Shown: in pieces, positions 3 to 48,466 of the stretch
Position numbering within the stretch: the first letter of the stretch is position 1
Layout of the letters: every line of letters starts with the position of its first letter
Source of the DNA: Pseudochryseolinea flava
GTDB lineage: Bacteria > Bacteroidota > Bacteroidia > Cytophagales > Cyclobacteriaceae
Reading direction: 5' to 3'
Length of the DNA stretch: 64,000 bases
Assembly: GCF_003286915.1 (NCBI RefSeq)
Contig: NZ_QMFY01000011.1
Coordinates: 62,001 to 126,000 of the forward strand
Made by a program: the position numbers and the translations under genes
The notes under the pieces: model-generated
Database searches by the model: none
Told to the model about the DNA's origin: nothing
Seen by the model: the letters and a program-made list of their open reading frames with translations, nothing else

Positions 3-3000
3 CTCGACAACCCTACCTTGGAAACCGCACAATTGGCGGCTCACACGGTCGAACAAAATGAATTGACATTTTTAATGACGATGGAAAAAACAGTCGCCGT
101 TTATCAATATGAAGCCGAGCAAAAACTGAATCGTATAAAAAACATCGAACTAGGGCTTGGGGTACTCTCAGTACTCATTCTGCTGCTCGAACTAATTTTC
201 ATTTTCCGTCCCATGATCCGGAATTTACAACAGAACAATACAGACCTTTTAAATATTAATGAGGAACTCACCACCGCAAACGAAGAGCTAAAGGCGAACG
301 AAGAACAAATCCAAAGCAACCTAGAACACATCATCCAACTACAAAACTTTTTGGAGGCAAGTGAGAATCAATATCGTGGACTCATAGAAAGTGCCACCGA
401 TATGATTTACGAACTGGACGACATGGGAAAATTTAGCTATGTAAATCCAGTCATGGAAAGCATCACGGAATATTCCAAAGAGGAACTACTGGCCAAGAAC
501 TATTGGGACTTAGTGCATCCTGACCATCGTCACAATACCGTTAATTTTTATAAGACGCAACGCGAAAAGCAAATTGAGTCTACTTACTTGGAATTGCCGA
601 TTATGACGCGTAGTGGATTCGAACTTTGGATCGGGCAAAACGTGCGCATGCTTTATAAAGACGGATGGGTTATTAAGGTTAGTGTTGTAGCACGTGATAT
701 TACGGTGGTTTACCGCGCTAGCGAAGCGCTTCAGTCAAGTGAGCAGTTATTTAGAACGCTCGCCGAAAAAGCTCCTGTCGGCATCTATCAACTTGATGAA
801 GTTGGCAACGTGGTCTTCGTCAACAACCGCTGGTTCGAAATCATCGGACTCGATCGTTCACAGGCTTCGCGCGACAGTCGCTACGGCGCGATACACAATG
901 ATGATCGCAGTTGGGTGTTGAGTTCGTGGAGTCGCGCCATTGAAGACAAAGAAGAAATTACGTTAGAGTTTCGCTACAATACGCTAACCAAAGGATTGAC
1001 GTGGGTTACAAACAGGCTATCGCCGATCAAAACGCCAGAGGGAAATGTTACAGGTTTTATCGGAACGATGGTTGATATTACCTTGATGAAAGAAGCTACG
1101 GCGAAGGTGGAGGATAGTGAACGACAATTTCGATTGCTCTCGGAAAATACATCCGACATGATTGTGCTTACCGATCTTGACACACGGTACAAATACGTAT
1201 CGCCTTCTGTAAAAGATATCTTACAATATGATCCACAAGAACTCATCGGCATGCAAGCTGTGTCACTTTTCCATCCTGACGATTTCCCCGCCGATGGATT
1301 GGAACTCTTGAAACGTGGCTATGAATTCAGCAATGTACAATTACGCATGCGTTCGAAAGATGGAACATATCGATGGTTGGAAACCAATACAAAACCTGTT
1401 CACGACGCGCAAGGAAAACTGGTAGGCATTCAAGCCGTAAACCGCGACATCACAAAACGTAAGCAAGCCGAAGACGCTTTAAAAGCTAGTGAACAACGTT
1501 TCCGATTACTGGCAGAAAAAGCACCCGTTGGAATTTTCCAAACCGACTCAAATGGTCGTTGCACATATATGAACAAACGGTGGCTAGAAATTTCTGGTCT
1601 ACGTGAACAACAAGCACTGGGCGACGGATGGATCAACGGTGTTCACATGGAAGATCGTGACAAAGTAGTTGCTGAATGGATGAAGGCCATCAACGAGAAT
1701 AGAGAGTTCATTCAGGAATATCGATTTCTCAACCCACAGCTAGGCACACGTTGGGTGGTGAGTAATGCGGTTCACATTTTAAGTGAGCATGGTGATATTT
1801 TTGGATTCATCGGTACGACGAATGATATCACCGACCTTAAGATAGCGCAAGAAAAATTGATTGAAAGCGAGAAACTCTACCGACTCATTTCAACAAACTC
1901 CAAAGATCTTATTTCGCTGTTCAATTTTGTCAACGGAAAATCAGTACGCACTTACATTTCACCATCCGTTCGCGACGTACTGGGTTATGAACCTGAAGAA
2001 GTGCTTCATCGAACGTGGCTTGAAATGATCGCACCAGAAGATCAAGAAATGATGGGTGACGTTCTTCAGCAACAAGCGCGCTCGGGCACGTCATCAACGG
2101 CGGAGTATCGCATGTACAAAAAGGATGGAACGCTTATTTGGCTTGAGTCTATCTCCCATCCATTCTTCGATAATGAAGGGAAACTTATCGGCTTTCAAAC
2201 TTCTTCGCGCGACATCACACACAGAAAAGGTTTTGAGGATGCGCTGCGCGTAGCCAAAGAAAAAGCAGAGGAAGCAACGTTGGCGAAAAGCCAATTCTTA
2301 TCAATGATGAGTCATGAGATTCGCACACCAATGAATGCAATTATCGGATTAACCAATCTGTTATTGCAAGAGAAACCTCGTGTCGACCAACACGAGAGCT
2401 TAAAGTTGCTGAAATTCTCAGGCGAAAATCTACTCACCATCATCAATGATATTCTCGACTTCAGCAAAATAGAAGCGGGTAAGATCACCTTGGAAAAAGT
2501 TCCATTCGATTTACAGACGCTCATTGTGAGCACGAAGCAGATGTTGGAACAACGCGCGAAAGAGAAGGGCGTAGGCTTGTACCTCCATTTCGATCCACAA
2601 GTGCCGCGTGTCGTTGTCGGCGACCAAGTTCGGTTGGGTCAAATCATTACCAACATTGTCGGGAATGCAATCAAGTTCACGGAAAGGGGCTACGTTGAAC
2701 TTTCCGTAAAACACCAAGGCATGGCGGGCGATTTGCATAATTTACTCTTTACTATTAAGGACACCGGCATCGGAATCGAGCAAGAAAAAATCAATCTTAT
2801 TTTCGAGAGCTTTTCACAAGCGCGTTCCGACACGACGCGAAAATTCGGAGGCACAGGTCTGGGGCTTTCCATCACCAAGCGGATGCTAAACCTCATGGGG
2901 TCGAACATCAACGTCGACAGTAAGGTGGGTTATGGTTCTACTTTCTTTTTTACATTACTGCTTGAGGAAGGTGAACTCAAGTTAGACACTGCTGACGAAG

Positions 3001-3764
3001 CGAAGGATCACACCAAAGATTTTCAAGAATCGAACATTCGTGTACTTCTTGTTGAAGACAATCGCGTGAACCAGGTTGTGGCTACTAATTTCCTAAGAAA
3101 ATGGGGTATCGAAGTAGACATCGCCAATCATGGCAAAGAGGCGGTTTCAATGATAAAAGAAAAAACGTATCAATTAGTATTGATGGATCTTCAGATGCCT
3201 GAAATGGATGGTTATGAAGCATCGAAGAAGATTCGCGCCATGGATGATGAATACTTCAAGGTTATTCCAATCATCGCACTAACTGCATCGGCGATGATGG
3301 ACATCAAGGATAAGGTGCTTGGAATTGGCATGACCGATTTTTTAAGTAAACCTTTTCAGCCAGAGGAGTTGCAAGCCATCATTGGAAAATATGTTCTGAA
3401 AGGAAATACGCCGACAACAAAGTCGCCTCGGCGCCAAAATAACCTTGAGCTATACTCAGAGGGTGATCCCGAATTCAAGCGAGAGTTGGCGAGTTTGCTG
3501 ATCAAAAATATAGAAGAACTAAAGCAAGCATTAACCGACACGATGGCCCGAAAAGATGTCGAGATTTTTAATCGTGCATCACACAAAGTAAAAACAACGC
3601 TCGGCATGCTGGGCGACGAAGAGTTCTCCGCACTTATAGAGGATGTTAAAACGATCCTGAACGGAAACGTCATGGAGACCCCTACCCTTCGAAAACACAT
3701 CAAACGCTTCGAGGAATTGTGCTTAAGAATCATTGAGGGCCTCCACGAGGAAATGAGCCTATAG
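3..3764 (+). CDS. Hybrid multi-PAS sensor histidine kinase, 5' end outside window
   Basis: The frame is open to the left edge, so the N-terminus is missing; the first in-window candidate start is only a TTG at 18, and residues here are numbered from it. Order of domains: a membrane segment at about 46-65, a coiled coil at 68-115, about five PAS/PAC sensor repeats (118-745), a HisKA dimerisation helix with the SHEIRTP box (His766 is the phosphorylated residue), an HATPase domain, a receiver domain (VLLVEDNRVNQ at about 1009, acceptor Asp1057 in LMDLQMPEMDG) and a C-terminal Hpt-like helical domain with the candidate His1189 in ASHKVKTT. The expected phosphorelay is His766 to Asp1057 to His1189 and then to a separate regulator not seen nearby. 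The signal is unknown. The domain call is strong; the role is open. Confidence 0.9.
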   Translation, partial: LDNPTLETAQLAAHTVEQNELTFLMTMEKTVAVYQYEAEQKLNRIKNIELGLGVLSVLILLLELIFIFRPMIRNLQQNNTDLLNINEELTTANEELKANEEQIQSNLEHIIQLQNFLEASENQYRGLIESATDMIYELDDMGKFSYVNPVMESITEYSKEELLAKNYWDLVHPDHRHNTVNFYKTQREKQIESTYLELPIMTRSGFELWIGQNVRMLYKDGWVIKVSVVARDITVVYRASEALQSSEQLFRTLAEKAPVGIYQLDEVGNVVFVNNRWFEIIGLDRSQASRDSRYGAIHNDDRSWVLSSWSRAIEDKEEITLEFRYNTLTKGLTWVTNRLSPIKTPEGNVTGFIGTMVDITLMKEATAKVEDSERQFRLLSENTSDMIVLTDLDTRYKYVSPSVKDILQYDPQELIGMQAVSLFHPDDFPADGLELLKRGYEFSNVQLRMRSKDGTYRWLETNTKPVHDAQGKLVGIQAVNRDITKRKQAEDALKASEQRFRLLAEKAPVGIFQTDSNGRCTYMNKRWLEISGLREQQALGDGWINGVHMEDRDKVVAEWMKAINENREFIQEYRFLNPQLGTRWVVSNAVHILSEHGDIFGFIGTTNDITDLKIAQEKLIESEKLYRLISTNSKDLISLFNFVNGKSVRTYISPSVRDVLGYEPEEVLHRTWLEMIAPEDQEMMGDVLQQQARSGTSSTAEYRMYKKDGTLIWLESISHPFFDNEGKLIGFQTSSRDITHRKGFEDALRVAKEKAEEATLAKSQFLSMMSHEIRTPMNAIIGLTNLLLQEKPRVDQHESLKLLKFSGENLLTIINDILDFSKIEAGKITLEKVPFDLQTLIVSTKQMLEQRAKEKGVGLYLHFDPQVPRVVVGDQVRLGQIITNIVGNAIKFTERGYVELSVKHQGMAGDLHNLLFTIKDTGIGIEQEKINLIFESFSQARSDTTRKFGGTGLGLSITKRMLNLMGSNINVDSKVGYGSTFFFTLLLEEGELKLDTADEAKDHTKDFQESNIRVLLVEDNRVNQVVATNFLRKWGIEVDIANHGKEAVSMIKEKTYQLVLMDLQMPEMDGYEASKKIRAMDDEYFKVIPIIALTASAMMDIKDKVLGIGMTDFLSKPFQPEELQAIIGKYVLKGNTPTTKSPRRQNNLELYSEGDPEFKRELASLLIKNIEELKQALTDTMARKDVEIFNRASHKVKTTLGMLGDEEFSALIEDVKTILNGNVMETPTLRKHIKRFEELCLRIIEGLHEEMSL

Positions 3765-43464: not shown

Positions 43465-44568
43465 CTAGACGCGTTCAGCAACTTTATTCATCACCGTCGT
43501 CTGAATTTGAATTGACTCTTGGTGGATAAGCTTTAGCAACTCGGCCGTAAACTCTTCGTTGAGACCCATCGCTTTTCCAAGCTTAATGCGTGTTTGAATG
43601 ATTTCTTCCCAACGTGACACTTGGAGGATCGTCACATTGTTTTCTTTCTTGTATTGTCCGATCTTCTCGGAGATCTTCATACGTGACGCAAGTTTTTGCA
43701 TGATTTCGTCATCTAACTGGTCAATTTGATCACGAAGGATGCTCAGCGTGTCTTTGAACGTCTTGTTATCAGAAGAAACACTACGAACGACGAGGCTATC
43801 AACAATTTTACCGAGGACCGCTGGCGTTACTTGTTGTTTCGCATCGCTCCACGCAGCATCTGGGTTGATGTGACTTTCGATCATCACACCGGCCATATCA
43901 AGGTCAAGTGCTTTTTGTGAAATCATAGCGATCAATTCGCGATTACCAGCGATGTGGCTTGGATCGCAGATGATATCAAGATCGGGAATACGCGTTTTTA
44001 GTTCGATGCCCAGATCCCACATTGGTGCATTTCTGAAAGGGCCTTTTTCGAATGACGAGAATCCACGGTGAATCGCGGCCAGCTTCGTGATACCCGCTTT
44101 GTTAAGACGCTCCAAACCGCCAATCCATAACTCTAGATCCGGGTTGATTGGATTTTTAACCATCACCGGAATGTCAACACCTTTCAAAGCATCGGCAATT
44201 TCTTGCACCGAGAAAGGGTTCACCGTTGTACGTGCACCGATCCAAAGAATATCGACACCCGCTTTCAAACATGCATTTACGTGAGCCGCGTTTGCAACTT
44301 CAGTTGTGATTGGCAAACCTGTTTCTTTCTTTGCTTGCGCGAGCCACTTCAGACCTTCTTCACCGGCACCTTCATACTGACCTGGTCTTGTGCGCGGTTT
44401 CCAAATACCAGCGCGAAGTGCATGAACCTTTCCGGTTGCAGCAAGTTGTTTCGCAGTGGTGATCATTTGATCTTCTGTCTCTGCGCTGCATGGTCCGCTG
44501 ATGATGACAGGCTTACTGGCTGTTGGTAGCCAGGTCGAAATTGATTGAAGTTGAAGTACGTTTTTCAT
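43465..44568 (-). CDS. Bifunctional DAHP synthase / chorismate mutase
   Basis: A 367-residue fusion. Residues 1-about 265 are a type I-beta 3-deoxy-7-phosphoheptulonate synthase (ISGPCSAETEDQ, RAGIWKPRTRPGQYEG, ICDPSHIAGNR); residues about 275-360 are an AroQ chorismate mutase (LRDQIDQLDDEIMQKLASRM). In this phylum the mutase at the C-terminus also senses prephenate and shuts down the synthase. It catalyses the first step of the shikimate route and the first step of the Phe/Tyr branch. It is the last of four genes, 46 bases after tyrA. Confidence 0.96.
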   Translation of the reverse strand: MKNVLQLQSISTWLPTASKPVIISGPCSAETEDQMITTAKQLAATGKVHALRAGIWKPRTRPGQYEGAGEEGLKWLAQAKKETGLPITTEVANAAHVNACLKAGVDILWIGARTTVNPFSVQEIADALKGVDIPVMVKNPINPDLELWIGGLERLNKAGITKLAAIHRGFSSFEKGPFRNAPMWDLGIELKTRIPDLDIICDPSHIAGNRELIAMISQKALDLDMAGVMIESHINPDAAWSDAKQQVTPAVLGKIVDSLVVRSVSSDNKTFKDTLSILRDQIDQLDDEIMQKLASRMKISEKIGQYKKENNVTILQVSRWEEIIQTRIKLGKAMGLNEEFTAELLKLIHQESIQIQTTVMNKVAERV

Positions 44569-44614: not shown

Positions 44615-45505
44615 TTACCCAGCTGGTTGTGTCTGGTGTTGATTTTTTGTTTTCAATTCGATTCCTTCAAGTACCCTCCGAATTTCATTTGCTTTTGACA
44701 TGATTCGATGTAACTCGGTGGTATCACGTTTCAACAGGTGATAGTGGAAACGTTGAAGGTGCATAATGTATTCTTGCAGCGCTTGGCTGAGATAATCTAA
44801 ATTTTGTTCGAAGATTGGCGCCCACATCTCAGGTGAACTTTTCGCCAATCGAACTGTCGATGCAAAACCACTTCCGGCGAGTGCAAAAATGTTCTTTTCA
44901 TCTTTCTCAATATCGAGCACCGTTTGACCCAATAAAAATGAGCTCACGTGCGACAAGTGTGATACATAGGCAACGTGTTTATCATGTTCGTCAGACTCCA
45001 TGAAGATGGTATTCATTCCAAGCGCCTCGAACACTTTCAATGTCAACGCCAAAGCTTGTGGCGCGGATTTTTCACGTTCACATACGATGTTTGTCTTACC
45101 ACGGAACAATCCTGAAAATGCTGCGGTCGGGCCAGAGTTTTCTGTACCTGCGATGGGATGTGCAGCGACAAATTGATCTCGCTTAGCATGCGTTGCCACA
45201 GCTTTACAGATCAGATTTTTCGTAGAACCTGCGTCAATCACAACAGCATCTGCTTTGATTTGATCAAGAATCGATGGCAATAATTGACACATTGCATTCA
45301 CAGGAATAGCAACGATAATCAAGTCTGCCGTTTGAAGGGCGTTGTCGGTCAAATCTATTTCATCGACTATCCCGAGTTCTATTGCCTTTGCTGCATGATC
45401 CGAATTGCGATCAACACCAACCAAACTCGTAGCAATCCCCGCCTTTCTTAAGTCGATGGCAATCGATCCGCCAATAAGTCCCAAACCAATAACTGTGGTT
45501 TTCAT
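44615..45505 (-). CDS. tyrA: Prephenate dehydrogenase
   Basis: A 296-residue protein. NAD-binding motif GLGLIGGS at 7-14, catalytic-region segments AHPIAGTENSGP and HVAYVSHLSHVSSF, and the helical dimerisation half with SGFASTVRLAKSSPEMW. It oxidises prephenate to 4-hydroxyphenylpyruvate. There is no C-terminal ACT domain, so feedback by Tyr is probably absent at this enzyme. It lies 5 bases after the aminotransferase gene, so all four genes are one operon. Confidence 0.94.
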   Translation of the reverse strand: MKTTVIGLGLIGGSIAIDLRKAGIATSLVGVDRNSDHAAKAIELGIVDEIDLTDNALQTADLIIVAIPVNAMCQLLPSILDQIKADAVVIDAGSTKNLICKAVATHAKRDQFVAAHPIAGTENSGPTAAFSGLFRGKTNIVCEREKSAPQALALTLKVFEALGMNTIFMESDEHDKHVAYVSHLSHVSSFLLGQTVLDIEKDEKNIFALAGSGFASTVRLAKSSPEMWAPIFEQNLDYLSQALQEYIMHLQRFHYHLLKRDTTELHRIMSKANEIRRVLEGIELKTKNQHQTQPAG

Positions 45506-45510
45506 ATTAC

Positions 45511-46701
45511 TTACTTTACGACTATTTGTTCAGTGTGCTTCGCTTCGAGGTGTTTTTGAATTCTTGTCAATGCTTCATTGAGCGACTCAACGGTACAGCA
45601 AAGTGAAATTCTGATATAACGTCTTCCGGCTTCACCAAAAATAAATCCGGGTGTGATAAACACTTTTGTTCCATAGAGAATCTCATCAATCCATTTCTCT
45701 ACATCGGTAACATGCGCTGGTGCTTTTGCCCAAACAAAAAGACCAGATTGTTTTTCTGCATACGTGCAACCTAATAGATCGAGTAGCTTTTTGCCAACGG
45801 CTTTACGTTCAGCATAGACTTTGTTCAACGCCGTAAACCACTCTTCACCATTCTTCAACGCTTCCGTCGCAGCATCTTGCAATCCTAGAAACATCCCTGA
45901 ATCCATATTGCTTTTAACTTTTAAAACAGCGTCGATATATTCTTTCTTTCCAGCAACCCACCCGAGACGCCATCCTGCCATGTTATGCGATTTGGATAAC
46001 GAATTTAACTCGAGTGCTACCTCTTCAGCACCTTCGATACTTAAGATGCTCATTGGAGAATCGTTAAGAATCAAACTGTAGGGATTGTCATTCACAATCA
46101 AGAACTGATGTTTCCGTGCAAGGTCGACGAGTTCCTTCAACTCTTCGCGTGAGGCCGTGCGACCTGTTGGCATGTGCGGAAAATTCACCCACATCAATTT
46201 CACCTTCGAAAGATCACTCTTCTTGAGCGCATCGATGTCGATTCCCCAATTGAGGTCTTCGCGAAGATTATACGGTCTTAATTTCGCGCCTACCAAATTT
46301 GCAACCGACGAATAGGTTGGATACCCCGGATTAGGAATAAGCACTTCTTCGCCATCGTTAAGGAAAGCCATCGCGATATGCATGATACCTTCTTTCGATC
46401 CCATGAGCGGAAGAATATCTGTTTCGGTATTTAACGCAACGTTGTAAGTGTTTGCATAAAAATCAGCAATAGCTTTTCTAAATGCAGGAATACCTTTGTA
46501 GCTCTGATATCCGTGGTGCGCTGGATTCTTCGCCGATGCAATCAACGCGTCGATCACCGGCGATGACGGCGCTTGATCAGGGCTACCGATACCAAGGTTG
46601 ATCACCCGTAACTCCGGCGTATCGAGTGTGCGGACTTCAGCAAGTTTTCTACTGAAGTAGTACTCTTCTACGTTGGCAATTCTATTGGCTGTTTTAATCA
46701 T
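45511..46701 (-). CDS. Class I/II PLP aminotransferase of the aromatic operon
   Basis: A 396-residue fold-type I aminotransferase. PLP-binding Lys is in SLSKSHNMAGWRLGW; other marks are NLGIGSPDQAP, NPGYPTYSS, NDNPYSLIL and the C-terminal RRYIRISLC. Its place between pheA and tyrA makes it the likely transaminase for phenylpyruvate and 4-hydroxyphenylpyruvate. It could instead act on prephenate; the sequence does not decide. It begins 59 bases after pheA. Confidence 0.9.
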   Translation of the reverse strand: MIKTANRIANVEEYYFSRKLAEVRTLDTPELRVINLGIGSPDQAPSSPVIDALIASAKNPAHHGYQSYKGIPAFRKAIADFYANTYNVALNTETDILPLMGSKEGIMHIAMAFLNDGEEVLIPNPGYPTYSSVANLVGAKLRPYNLREDLNWGIDIDALKKSDLSKVKLMWVNFPHMPTGRTASREELKELVDLARKHQFLIVNDNPYSLILNDSPMSILSIEGAEEVALELNSLSKSHNMAGWRLGWVAGKKEYIDAVLKVKSNMDSGMFLGLQDAATEALKNGEEWFTALNKVYAERKAVGKKLLDLLGCTYAEKQSGLFVWAKAPAHVTDVEKWIDEILYGTKVFITPGFIFGEAGRRYIRISLCCTVESLNEALTRIQKHLEAKHTEQIVVK

Positions 46702-46760: not shown

Positions 46761-47603
46761 TTACTTGTACTCGATCTTCGCCTTCTTATACTCACCAAGC
46801 ACATTCAAATTCTTCACCTGTCGCAGCACTTGTTTTAGTGCGTCATCATAATTCTTTCGTTTCTTCCACTCAACATCGACGTGAATGGAGTATTCACTTG
46901 GCTTGCCGATGATTGGAATAGATTGAATCTTGGTAAGGTTGATGCTATTATTTTTAAAAGTCATCAGTGCATCGGCAAGGCTTCCTACTTCATTGGCAAC
47001 TTCGAAATACATCGAAGCTTTATTTGACGTAGCATTGTCACTACTCCGTTTTGTTAAAATCAAAAAGCGTGTAAAGTTCTTCTTATGCGTTTCGATTCTT
47101 TTCTCGAGTATCTGCAGTCCAAACTTTTTAGCGGCAAACTCATTCGCGATGGCAGCTGTGTCTTTTAGCTTCAGTTCCTTCACGCGCTTTGCTGAAAGTG
47201 CAGTATCATCGCTTTCTCGAATTTCAACACCTTTCAATGCATGTAAAAATTCAGTACACTGGCGAATTGCCATTGGATGAGATTCTATGCACTTAAGATT
47301 TTCAATCTTAACACCTGGCAATGCCATCAAGTGCATATGAATGGGAAGATAAAGCTCACCGATGATGCTAAAGTGATAGCTCTGCAACAAGAAGTAGTTG
47401 GGCAAAATGCTTCCTGCAATAGAATTCTCAATCGCCATAACGGCATAGTCAGACTCACCGTTCTTCAGACTTTCACACAGTTGATGAAACGTAAGACACT
47501 CTACCGTTTCGACTGATTCACCGAAGTATGTAAACGCGGCTACTTCGTGAAAGCTCGCTGTGATTCCCTGAATTGCTACTCTTGTTTTTTTCTTCTTTGC
47601 CAT
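46761..47603 (-). CDS. pheA: Prephenate dehydratase
   Basis: A 280-residue protein. The periplasmic-binding-like catalytic domain covers about 1-180 (AIQGITASFHEVAA, AIENSIAGSI, ESHPMAIRQC, DTAAIANEFAAKKFG) and the C-terminal ACT domain about 195-270, where phenylalanine would bind as feedback inhibitor. The ESRP motif of most family members reads QSIPIIGKPSEY here. It converts prephenate to phenylpyruvate. It is the first structural gene after the attenuator; 88 bases separate it from the end of the terminator's U run. That stretch holds a weak hairpin around 47656-47681 and otherwise nothing I recognise. Confidence 0.95.
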   Translation of the reverse strand: MAKKKKTRVAIQGITASFHEVAAFTYFGESVETVECLTFHQLCESLKNGESDYAVMAIENSIAGSILPNYFLLQSYHFSIIGELYLPIHMHLMALPGVKIENLKCIESHPMAIRQCTEFLHALKGVEIRESDDTALSAKRVKELKLKDTAAIANEFAAKKFGLQILEKRIETHKKNFTRFLILTKRSSDNATSNKASMYFEVANEVGSLADALMTFKNNSINLTKIQSIPIIGKPSEYSIHVDVEWKKRKNYDDALKQVLRQVKNLNVLGEYKKAKIEYK

Positions 47604-47691
47604 TTCTTTACTGTGTCTTCCGTAATCAATCGCCCCATTTAAGAGCCGATCGTCAAACTATCTTTTGATCGTGTATTCGTACATCGTGGTC

Positions 47692-47718
47692 AAAAAAAAA
47701 GTCCCGGCTGCCCGGGAC
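47692..47718 (-). terminator. Attenuator terminator (segments 3:4)
   Basis: On the minus strand GTCCCGG-GCAG-CCGGGAC is a 7-bp GC-rich stem with a 4-base loop, followed at once by nine T (47700-47692). It stands between the leader peptide and pheA, with no complete gene before it, so its purpose is regulation rather than ending an operon. Confidence 0.9.
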
Positions 47719-47783
47719 CTTTTTGAGTTTCTTTGTTATTTATCTTTAACAACGCATCCTCTCTAAAGTCCCGTTCGGGTACT
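47712..47783 (-). promoter_or_regulatory. Attenuator: alternative RNA hairpins of the aromatic leader
   Basis: Segment 1 (AGUaCCC, 47783-47777) pairs with segment 2 (GGGACU, 47772-47767) as a 6-bp hairpin with a bulged A. Segment 2 in the slightly shifted form CGGGACUUU (47773-47765) also pairs over 9 bp, one of them G-U, with segment 3 AAGGUCCCG (47721-47713), and this blocks the 3:4 terminator. Segment 1 starts directly after the ninth aromatic codon, so a ribosome waiting for charged tRNA-Phe or tRNA-Tyr would mask it and free segment 2 for antitermination. A ribosome that reaches the stop codon (47765-47763) masks segment 2 and lets the terminator form. The pairing is read from sequence; the mechanism is inferred. 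Confidence 0.82.
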
Positions 47784-47825
47784 AAAGAAGTAGTAATAAA
47801 AATAAAAGAATGTGTTGCTTTTCAT
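47763..47825 (-). CDS. Phe/Tyr-rich leader peptide of the aromatic operon
   Basis: A 20-codon frame from ATG at 47825 to TAG. After four residues (MKSN) and a Thr comes FFYFYYYFF, nine aromatic codons in a row (five Phe, four Tyr), then a short tail STRTGL. Such density is not expected by chance in a 20-codon frame. The ATG is about 12 bases downstream of the predicted transcription start, and the stop codon lies at the end of RNA segment 2. The peptide itself probably has no function; its translation is the sensor for Phe and Tyr supply for pheA, the aminotransferase, tyrA and the DAHP synthase downstream. Confidence 0.88.
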   Translation of the reverse strand: MKSNTFFYFYYYFFSTRTGL

Positions 47826-47838
47826 ATCAAATTGATAT
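47824..47838. promoter_or_regulatory. Palindrome at the start of the aromatic leader
   Basis: ATATCAA-A-TTGATAT is a perfect 7-1-7 inverted repeat. It covers the predicted transcription start and reaches the leader ATG. It could be an operator for a repressor, or chance in AT-rich DNA. Confidence 0.35.
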
Positions 47839-47842
47839 AAGT

Positions 47843-47875
47843 CAAAGATAAGTGCAATTTGTCAGGAGTTCCAAA
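47843..47875 (-). promoter_or_regulatory. Promoter of the aromatic operon
   Basis: On the minus strand TTTG (47875-47872), 21 bases, then TATCTTTG (47850-47843): an exact match to the Bacteroidota -33/-7 consensus. Transcription would begin at about 47836, about 12 bases before the leader ATG. The 431-base gap between pheA and the next gene on the plus strand is otherwise explained by the leader and attenuator; beyond 47875 I see nothing except AT-rich DNA. Confidence 0.75.
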
Positions 47876-48034
47876 CAGGCTTTAATCTTTTTACAAATTT
47901 TTGCAAATTTTTTAATAGAACTAATGCTTGTTAGCGATTTAATAGTCGAAATTTTCAACAGTTAACCGCCGCTTATGTGAAGTTACTGTTATGTATCGTG
48001 CTGTGCTTGTACCTTGTTTCCAAAATCAAAAAAC

Positions 48035-48466
48035 ATGAAAGCAGTTATCAAAGCCTTCTTATTTATAAGCATCATTGCGCTATTAAGTTGTGGTAACAAA
48101 CCGCAAGAAGCCGCGGGTGACCCAGTCCAAGAAGAAAGTGCGAATGCAGTTTTAGAACGTGAGATCGACAAGATTCACATGGACGCGATGGAGAAAATGG
48201 AAGAAATTCAAAAAATTCGCCGTCAGCTTAAAACGACGCTTTCGGATTCTGTGATGACTGAAACAGGCAAGGCTGCTATTGAAAAATCAATTGCTACTTT
48301 GGACTCGGCTGATAAGCTGATGATGGATTGGATGCATAAATACAATCCCCTCAACGATAGTATTGACGGCGTAGAGAAAGCGCGCGAGTATCTCGAAAAC
48401 GAAATGGTGAAGGTGAAGAAGCTAGACGCGGAAATGCAAGAGGCAATTGAAAAAGCGAAAATCTAA
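48035..48466 (+). CDS. Predicted helical lipoprotein
   Basis: A 143-residue protein. Signal sequence with lipobox LLSC (Cys20 or nearby) at about 1-20, a short acidic linker, and then long amphipathic helices to the end (EREIDKIHMDAMEKMEEIQKI and the like) with no catalytic motifs. The start is the ATG at 48035; the frame runs back 7 codons to 48014, outside the signal sequence. It is divergent from the aromatic operon, separated by about 160 bases from its promoter. Function unknown. Confidence 0.78.
   Translation: MKAVIKAFLFISIIALLSCGNKPQEAAGDPVQEESANAVLEREIDKIHMDAMEKMEEIQKIRRQLKTTLSDSVMTETGKAAIEKSIATLDSADKLMMDWMHKYNPLNDSIDGVEKAREYLENEMVKVKKLDAEMQEAIEKAKI

Follow-up and report, generated by a model that had tools for sequence, protein, structure and literature searches.

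A candidate ribosome-mediated attenuator with Phe and Tyr codons ahead of pheA in Pseudochryseolinea flava and related Bacteroidota

Background

Ribosome-mediated attenuation is a textbook kind of regulation; what is notable about the locus described here is the breadth of its occurrence and its dual sensing of Phe and Tyr. The enterobacterial pheL-pheA attenuator (RF01859) resembles it in having an aromatic-codon leader ORF ahead of pheA and a GC-rich terminator; to our knowledge, the pheL leader contains Phe codons and no Tyr codons, and no tyrA is present in the operon behind it. Sensing of more than one amino acid by a single leader is found, as here, in the thr and ilv leaders of enterobacteria, for other amino acids and in another lineage. 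Bacteroid-trp RNA (RF01692), which we take to be a leader of trp genes, is a candidate structured RNA of Bacteroidetes too, but by its name it belongs to another operon. A 2004 comparative study by Vitreschak and colleagues reportedly mentions Bacteroidetes.

Bacteroid-trp is listed among the candidate structured RNAs of Bacteroidetes in PMC2864571, and leaders with short ORFs are noted for B. thetaiotaomicron in PMC7366714. For Flavobacterium psychrophilum, PMC9723704 describes a structured 5' element of pheA that is conserved in other Flavobacteriaceae and gave no Rfam hits, as well as strong clues for leader-peptide attenuation ahead of amino-acid operons. This element, like the present one, lies 5' of pheA, and the two are probably the same; the description considered gives no codon run, antiterminator or covariation for pheA. 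Among the matches listed in a literature search that took in a minority of subscription journals, no description of a Phe/Tyr attenuator in Bacteroidota came nearer than PMC9723704.

The operon and its leader

The window, meaning the whole stretch of 64,000 nucleotides of P. flava DNA that was analysed (contig NZ_QMFY01000011.1), contains the following operon.

46761..47603, minus strand: pheA, prephenate dehydratase (PF00800, E 4.1e-56)
45511..46701, minus strand: class I/II aminotransferase (PF00155)
44615..45505, minus strand: tyrA, prephenate dehydrogenase (NF006307 above cut-off; PF02153)
43465..44568, minus strand: DAHP synthase fused to chorismate mutase (PF00793 and PF01817)

The original prediction, made from the letters of the window, held that this operon makes Phe and Tyr and nothing else. 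"Nothing else" is too strong, because the DAHP synthase at the end of the operon also supplies Trp and other chorismate products.

Other gene orders are found behind leaders of the same kind. In Solitalea (L096) and in a same-class family (f4, L112-L122) such a leader is present ahead of pheA. DAHP synthase/chorismate mutase comes after pheA in each of five loci inspected, and none of the twelve loci showed an aminotransferase or tyrA within 1.5 kb. In another genome (L124, positions 1489-3504), pheA is apparently fused in frame with DAHP synthase in a 671-codon ORF, again with a leader of the same kind ahead of it.

The region upstream of pheA has the following features.

47763..47825, minus strand: leader ORF MKSNTFFYFYYYFFSTRTGL, 20 codons, stop TAG at 47765-47763, kept in relatives
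47784..47810, minus strand: putative sensing run FFYFYYYFF, codons 6-14, nine Phe/Tyr codons with no break
47806..47819, minus strand: segment 1, predicted partner of 1' (MFE fold; swap test)
47748..47761, minus strand: segment 1', predicted partner of segment 1 (MFE fold; swap test)
47767..47783, minus strand: small predicted hairpin 2':2 (CCC-loop-GGG), able to hold segment 2 (MFE fold; 71 relatives)
47765..47773, minus strand: segment 2 (CGGGACTTT), predicted 5' arm of the antiterminator, with the stop codon at its end (pairing tests; mask model)
47712..47724, minus strand: segment 3, predicted to form the terminator's 5' arm and, alternatively, to pair as 3' partner with segment 2 (fold; alignment)
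47695..47707, minus strand: segment 4, predicted 3' arm of the terminator (fold; alignment)
47692..47700, minus strand: U tract of nine T (sequence)

The 20-codon frame with nine unbroken aromatic codons was confirmed (47825-47763), as was the GC-rich hairpin (47724-47695), which has 13 bp and a loop at 47711-47708 and runs into the nine T (47700-47692), with a spacing of 88 nt from terminator and U tract to pheA. Segment 3 is common to the terminator (3:4) and the antiterminator (2:3), which bears out the mutually exclusive pairing that had been claimed. The 3' edge of segment 2 meets the stop codon TAG, the final two bases of which are paired in the MFE fold. The upstream neighbour is a long ORF on the plus strand (48014-48466) that points in the opposite direction, and therefore the hairpin belongs to the pheA leader.

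Two further items were noted nearby. An 8-pair hairpin (47822-47840, minus strand; mostly A-U, with one C-G, one U-G and a loop of 3) covers the leader start codon, and is by eye absent upstream in the closest relatives. Past the terminator, a second 20-codon ORF (MGRLITEDTVKKWQRRKKQE, 47576-47638, minus strand) begins ahead of pheA and extends over the start of that gene in a different frame.

No Rfam family, T-box (RF00230) and RF01692 included, reached its gathering threshold in a scan of the 64-kb window; T-boxes, riboswitches and other Rfam families were accordingly set aside, the best match being a sub-threshold one to Phe_leader (RF01859; 37.7 bits against a gathering threshold of 55, over the full length of the model, positions 1-125, with many broken pairs). 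When 11 relatives were searched at E values up to 0.5, RF01859 matched only L081 (37.0), L128 (34.2) and L145 (31.3). Thr_leader (RF00506) scored 22.6 bits against a gathering threshold of 55 on the P. flava leader region, and Bacteroid-trp had no match in the region at E values up to 5. With a model built from the leaders, that of P. flava included, no second convincing copy was found in the P. flava genome; the next match (L219, E 0.14) covers an ORF end and a plain hairpin, has no aromatic leader and was rejected.

Promoter

A candidate promoter pair lies upstream of the leader ORF.

47872..47875, minus strand: TTTG, putative -33 element (sequence; consensus)
47843..47850, minus strand: TATCTTTG, putative -7 element of the form TAnnTTTG (sequence; motif present in other leaders)

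The consensus promoter of the original prediction survives in part. A sigma-70 scan at the leader found no promoter, and that reading was dropped; TTTG (47875-47872) and TATCTTTG (47850-47843), with 21 nt between them, form a putative pair that presumably matches the consensus of Bacteroidota promoters. Of 74 leaders, 16 have TAnnTTTG no more than 60 nt from the leader ATG, as against about 3 in shuffled sequences, and 12 of these have it at -25 to -28; the other 58 leaders lack the exact motif in this interval.

Predicted mechanism

Comparison of leader sequences and modelling of the fold indicate that the locus is very probably a ribosome-mediated transcription attenuator that gauges charged Phe- and Tyr-tRNA. 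The promoter just upstream would start a short leader transcript, and a ribosome would enter the 20-codon ORF. With ample Phe and Tyr, the ribosome would translate the whole aromatic run, arrive at the stop codon and cover segment 2, upon which 3:4 would form and RNA polymerase would halt in the U tract, the exclusion of 2:3 at this step being computed. With Phe or Tyr scarce, the ribosome would stall within the aromatic run, short of segment 2, leaving segment 2 free to take segment 3 once the latter is made, so that no terminator would form and the operon would be transcribed.

Each leader was cut at the 3' end of segment 3 and folded with a stretch the size of a ribosome kept out of pairing. 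In this mask model, the P. flava leader gave a P(2:3) of 0.86-0.98 for a ribosome on any of the aromatic codons and of 0 for one on the stop codon, values that match the logic of an attenuator. As for the first hairpin of the original prediction, its pairing is found (segment 1 with 1', downstream of segment 2, plus the small 2':2 hairpin); its action as a hard lock is unsupported at equilibrium, since P(2:3) without a ribosome was 0.94, and the hairpin is thus not predicted to beat the antiterminator unaided. An untranslated leader is therefore predicted to read through at equilibrium.

In 51 of the 70 core leaders, the GGG of segment 2 begins 11 nt past the last aromatic codon. A ribosome footprint extends about 16 nt past the first base of the P site, and with this spacing a ribosome on the last aromatic codon would therefore reach just the edge of segment 2.

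The aromatic codon run

The runs of the 70 core leaders comprise 570 codons, of which 556 specify Phe, Tyr or Trp. The run codons show T/C changes at third positions, and differences in run length amount to whole codons for 68 of the 71 aligned leaders. Three leaders (L068, L070 and L082) have a one-base deletion within the aromatic run, after which the frame shifts; their hairpins are kept.

A fold scan modelled both an aromatic ORF and a terminator in 140 of 192 upstream regions; L054, L074 and L156 are outside this set despite having a leader and hairpin in other scans. A Trp codon lies inside the Phe/Tyr run in 48 of the 140 leaders, a hint that there may be partial sensing of Trp in some lineages. 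Attenuation could thus be real and yet respond mainly to slow translation in general, or to Trp as well, instead of to Phe and Tyr specifically, as these codons and the DAHP synthase of the operon, which serves Trp too, might suggest. We regard this as unlikely, because Phe and Tyr codons are both present in 140 of 140 leaders, with totals of 642 Phe and 481 Tyr codons against 48 Trp codons, although only the joint presence of Phe and Tyr is informative here because the leaders were chosen by Phe/Tyr density.

Pairing tests and chance controls

The alignment comprised 71 of 76 distinct leaders, with L109, L110, L096 and L097 omitted as divergent or weak and L023 as a near-duplicate. Across these 71 close leaders, 97% of terminator cells are paired, with changes on both sides in 7 of 12 pairs. 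For the 2':2 hairpin the figure is 82%, mostly through conservation, so that this helix says little. For the antiterminator 2:3 it is 91%; 0 of 500 shuffles equalled the native helix in paired cells or in covariation score, and its double-change pairs and pair types were not above shuffles in this close-relative alignment (reached by 442 and 321 of 500, respectively).

Swap tests compared native arms with arms exchanged between leaders; this alignment-free test was used for 1:1' because its register differs between subtypes. The first swap test covered 70 leaders, the frame-shifted L082 also being omitted, and L077, L080 and L098 were left out of the final one on account of a 1' stretch that is too short. 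In 68 leaders from outside the close clade, 2:3 folded at -15.2 kcal/mol native and -9.7 kcal/mol swapped. With 26 mutually dissimilar leaders, the native and swapped energies were -15.6 and -9.8 kcal/mol for 2:3, -17.2 and -8.9 kcal/mol for 3:4, and -9.3 and -6.3 kcal/mol for 1:1', and each of the three native values was equalled by 0 of 5000 permutations. The control pair 1:3 (-4.2 versus -3.6 kcal/mol) was equalled by 269 of 5000 permutations in the same leaders and by 163 of 5000 in 70 non-core leaders, a low frequency and a sign that relatedness still inflates the swap tests and is not fully removed. The swap tests support the predicted 1:1', 2:3 and 3:4 pairings. Segment 2 occurs as CGGGACU, AGGAUUG, ACGAGGC, GCGGGGCC and other variants, and segment 3 alters in step.

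The 156-nt leader folds at -45.5 kcal/mol, compared with -24.8 kcal/mol (sd 3.3) in 200 shuffles (z -6.25). The leader ORF is the sole short ORF with at least 6 Phe/Tyr per 10 residues on either strand of the 64-kb window. Twenty Markov-1 random windows averaged 1.4 such ORFs, without a single case of 9 aromatic residues in 10 or of a terminator behind the ORF, and the flanks of close relatives (452,452 nt, both strands counted) contained 12, of which 0 had a terminator. The combination of aromatic ORF and terminator is not due to chance.

The hairpin could instead be a constitutive terminator, the aromatic ORF being a by-product of a T-rich stretch with no part in sensing. The sequence is indeed T-rich, the direct facts are facts of sequence only, and such a terminator would need no translation; we consider this explanation very improbable in view of the retention of aromatic codons despite third-position changes, the whole-codon changes in length, the covariation of segment 2 with segment 3, and the failure of the combination to appear in random sequence of like composition or in the flanks of relatives. 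Least probable of all is control by a factor acting in trans, a protein or small molecule that would bind the leader (in the manner of TRAP or a riboswitch) while the small ORF only tunes the response, and for which the conserved 2':2 hairpin and the 1:1' stem could serve as a binding site, given that no Rfam family reached gathering in the window, that no riboswitch or T-box was among six matches at E values up to 5 in the region, and that conservation falls on the codons and alternative arms, with the 1:1' stem and the loops differing from one subtype to another.

Distribution among genomes

Attenuation by a translating ribosome also fits the comparison of relatives that the original prediction had proposed, in which an aromatic run and terminator were found in 66 of 66 close relatives with upstream sequence and in 75 of 75 same-class genomes examined, with co-varying pairings. 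The 66 close relatives (L032-L095, L098 and L111; L104 has no upstream sequence) were drawn from the best 80 of 148 relatives. The carriers in the close clade include Chryseolinea, a member of Cytophagales, as well as Ohtaekwangia, Dawidia and Parachryseolinea.

PheA was present in 185 of 196 genomes in a family-wide search, and the family sample consisted of 27 close and 59 divergent genomes of the 185 with a PheA match (one more, G056, ends at a contig edge). Every one of the 27 family genomes whose PheA is at least 69% identical, that of P. flava included, has the aromatic leader ORF and terminator; the 66 close relatives are partly the same genomes. Where PheA is divergent, the leader was found in 19 of 59 family genomes (10 of 40, 9 of 16 and 0 of 3) and was not found in 40 (30, 7 and 3); it was absent from all three genomes examined with PheA 49-50% identical. 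In 12 of 30 leaderless family members, a same-strand ORF ends within 50 nt of the PheA match, and pheA is therefore probably not the first gene in the transcript.

Conserved pheA synteny without the leader, which the original prediction had named as evidence against it, was found among more distant loci: five whose PheA is 53-57% identical (L099-L102 and L105) keep the order pheA-aminotransferase-tyrA and had no leader in the scan, and the element is therefore not universal.

In the same order, the leader was found in 3 of 3 genomes examined from another family, of 6 genomes. The 75 same-class genomes (52 and 23) were taken from 83 with a PheA match, the other 8 belonging to family f6, with very divergent PheA and no coordinates listed; all 75 have the aromatic ORF, and the terminator hairpin and T-run were detected in 74 by the fold scan and in the last one (L156) by a stem scan. 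Solitalea, of Sphingobacteriales, has a divergent form of the leader (L096 and L097). Outside the class, the leader was found in 4 of 31 genomes (4 of 11 and 0 of 20) and not in the other 27, the 31 having been picked from 240 among those with listed coordinates, not at random. A single aromatic ORF in the set of 20 outside-class genomes was followed by a weak hairpin (-4.4 kcal/mol) and was not counted.

Two layouts of the leader

The stop codon lies beyond segment 2 in 45 of the 70 core leaders, and at least 25 nt past the start of segment 2 in 39 of the 70; in these far-stop leaders the peptide often ends in GLERESVC. In the mask model, a ribosome at the stop codon fails to block 2:3 in 33 of the 45 far-stop core leaders. 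Such leaders may rely on a putative protector stem after release of the ribosome.

We tentatively propose, while holding the opposite to be slightly more probable, that a dual Phe/Tyr attenuator is ancestral to a large part of Bacteroidota, a phylum in which ribosomes fail to recognise Shine-Dalgarno sequences, and exists in two layouts: one with the stop codon at segment 2, as in P. flava, and the other with the stop codon at least 25 nt past the start of segment 2, in which termination would depend on a protector stem conserved in its own right (1:1' with 2':2) and not on a ribosome parked at the stop codon. The element would constitute its own RNA family, not yet in Rfam.

Implications

A comparative survey confined to four Rfam leader motifs (His, Leu, Thr and Trp) suggested that amino-acid attenuators may stem from gammaproteobacteria with very few transfers (PMC3766115). 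That the attenuator is predicted in every one of the 75 same-class genomes examined is an argument for Bacteroidota having a set of their own, or a much older one. A covariance model of the leader could be used in annotation, and the leader itself as a Phe/Tyr-responsive control element.

If an attenuator with two layouts is indeed ancestral, close timing between ribosome and RNA polymerase would be implied in Bacteroidota. Bacteria whose ribosomes fail to recognise Shine-Dalgarno sequences are described in PMC9976891, and the leader may provide a natural reporter of whether RNA polymerase outruns the leading ribosome in non-Shine-Dalgarno bacteria.
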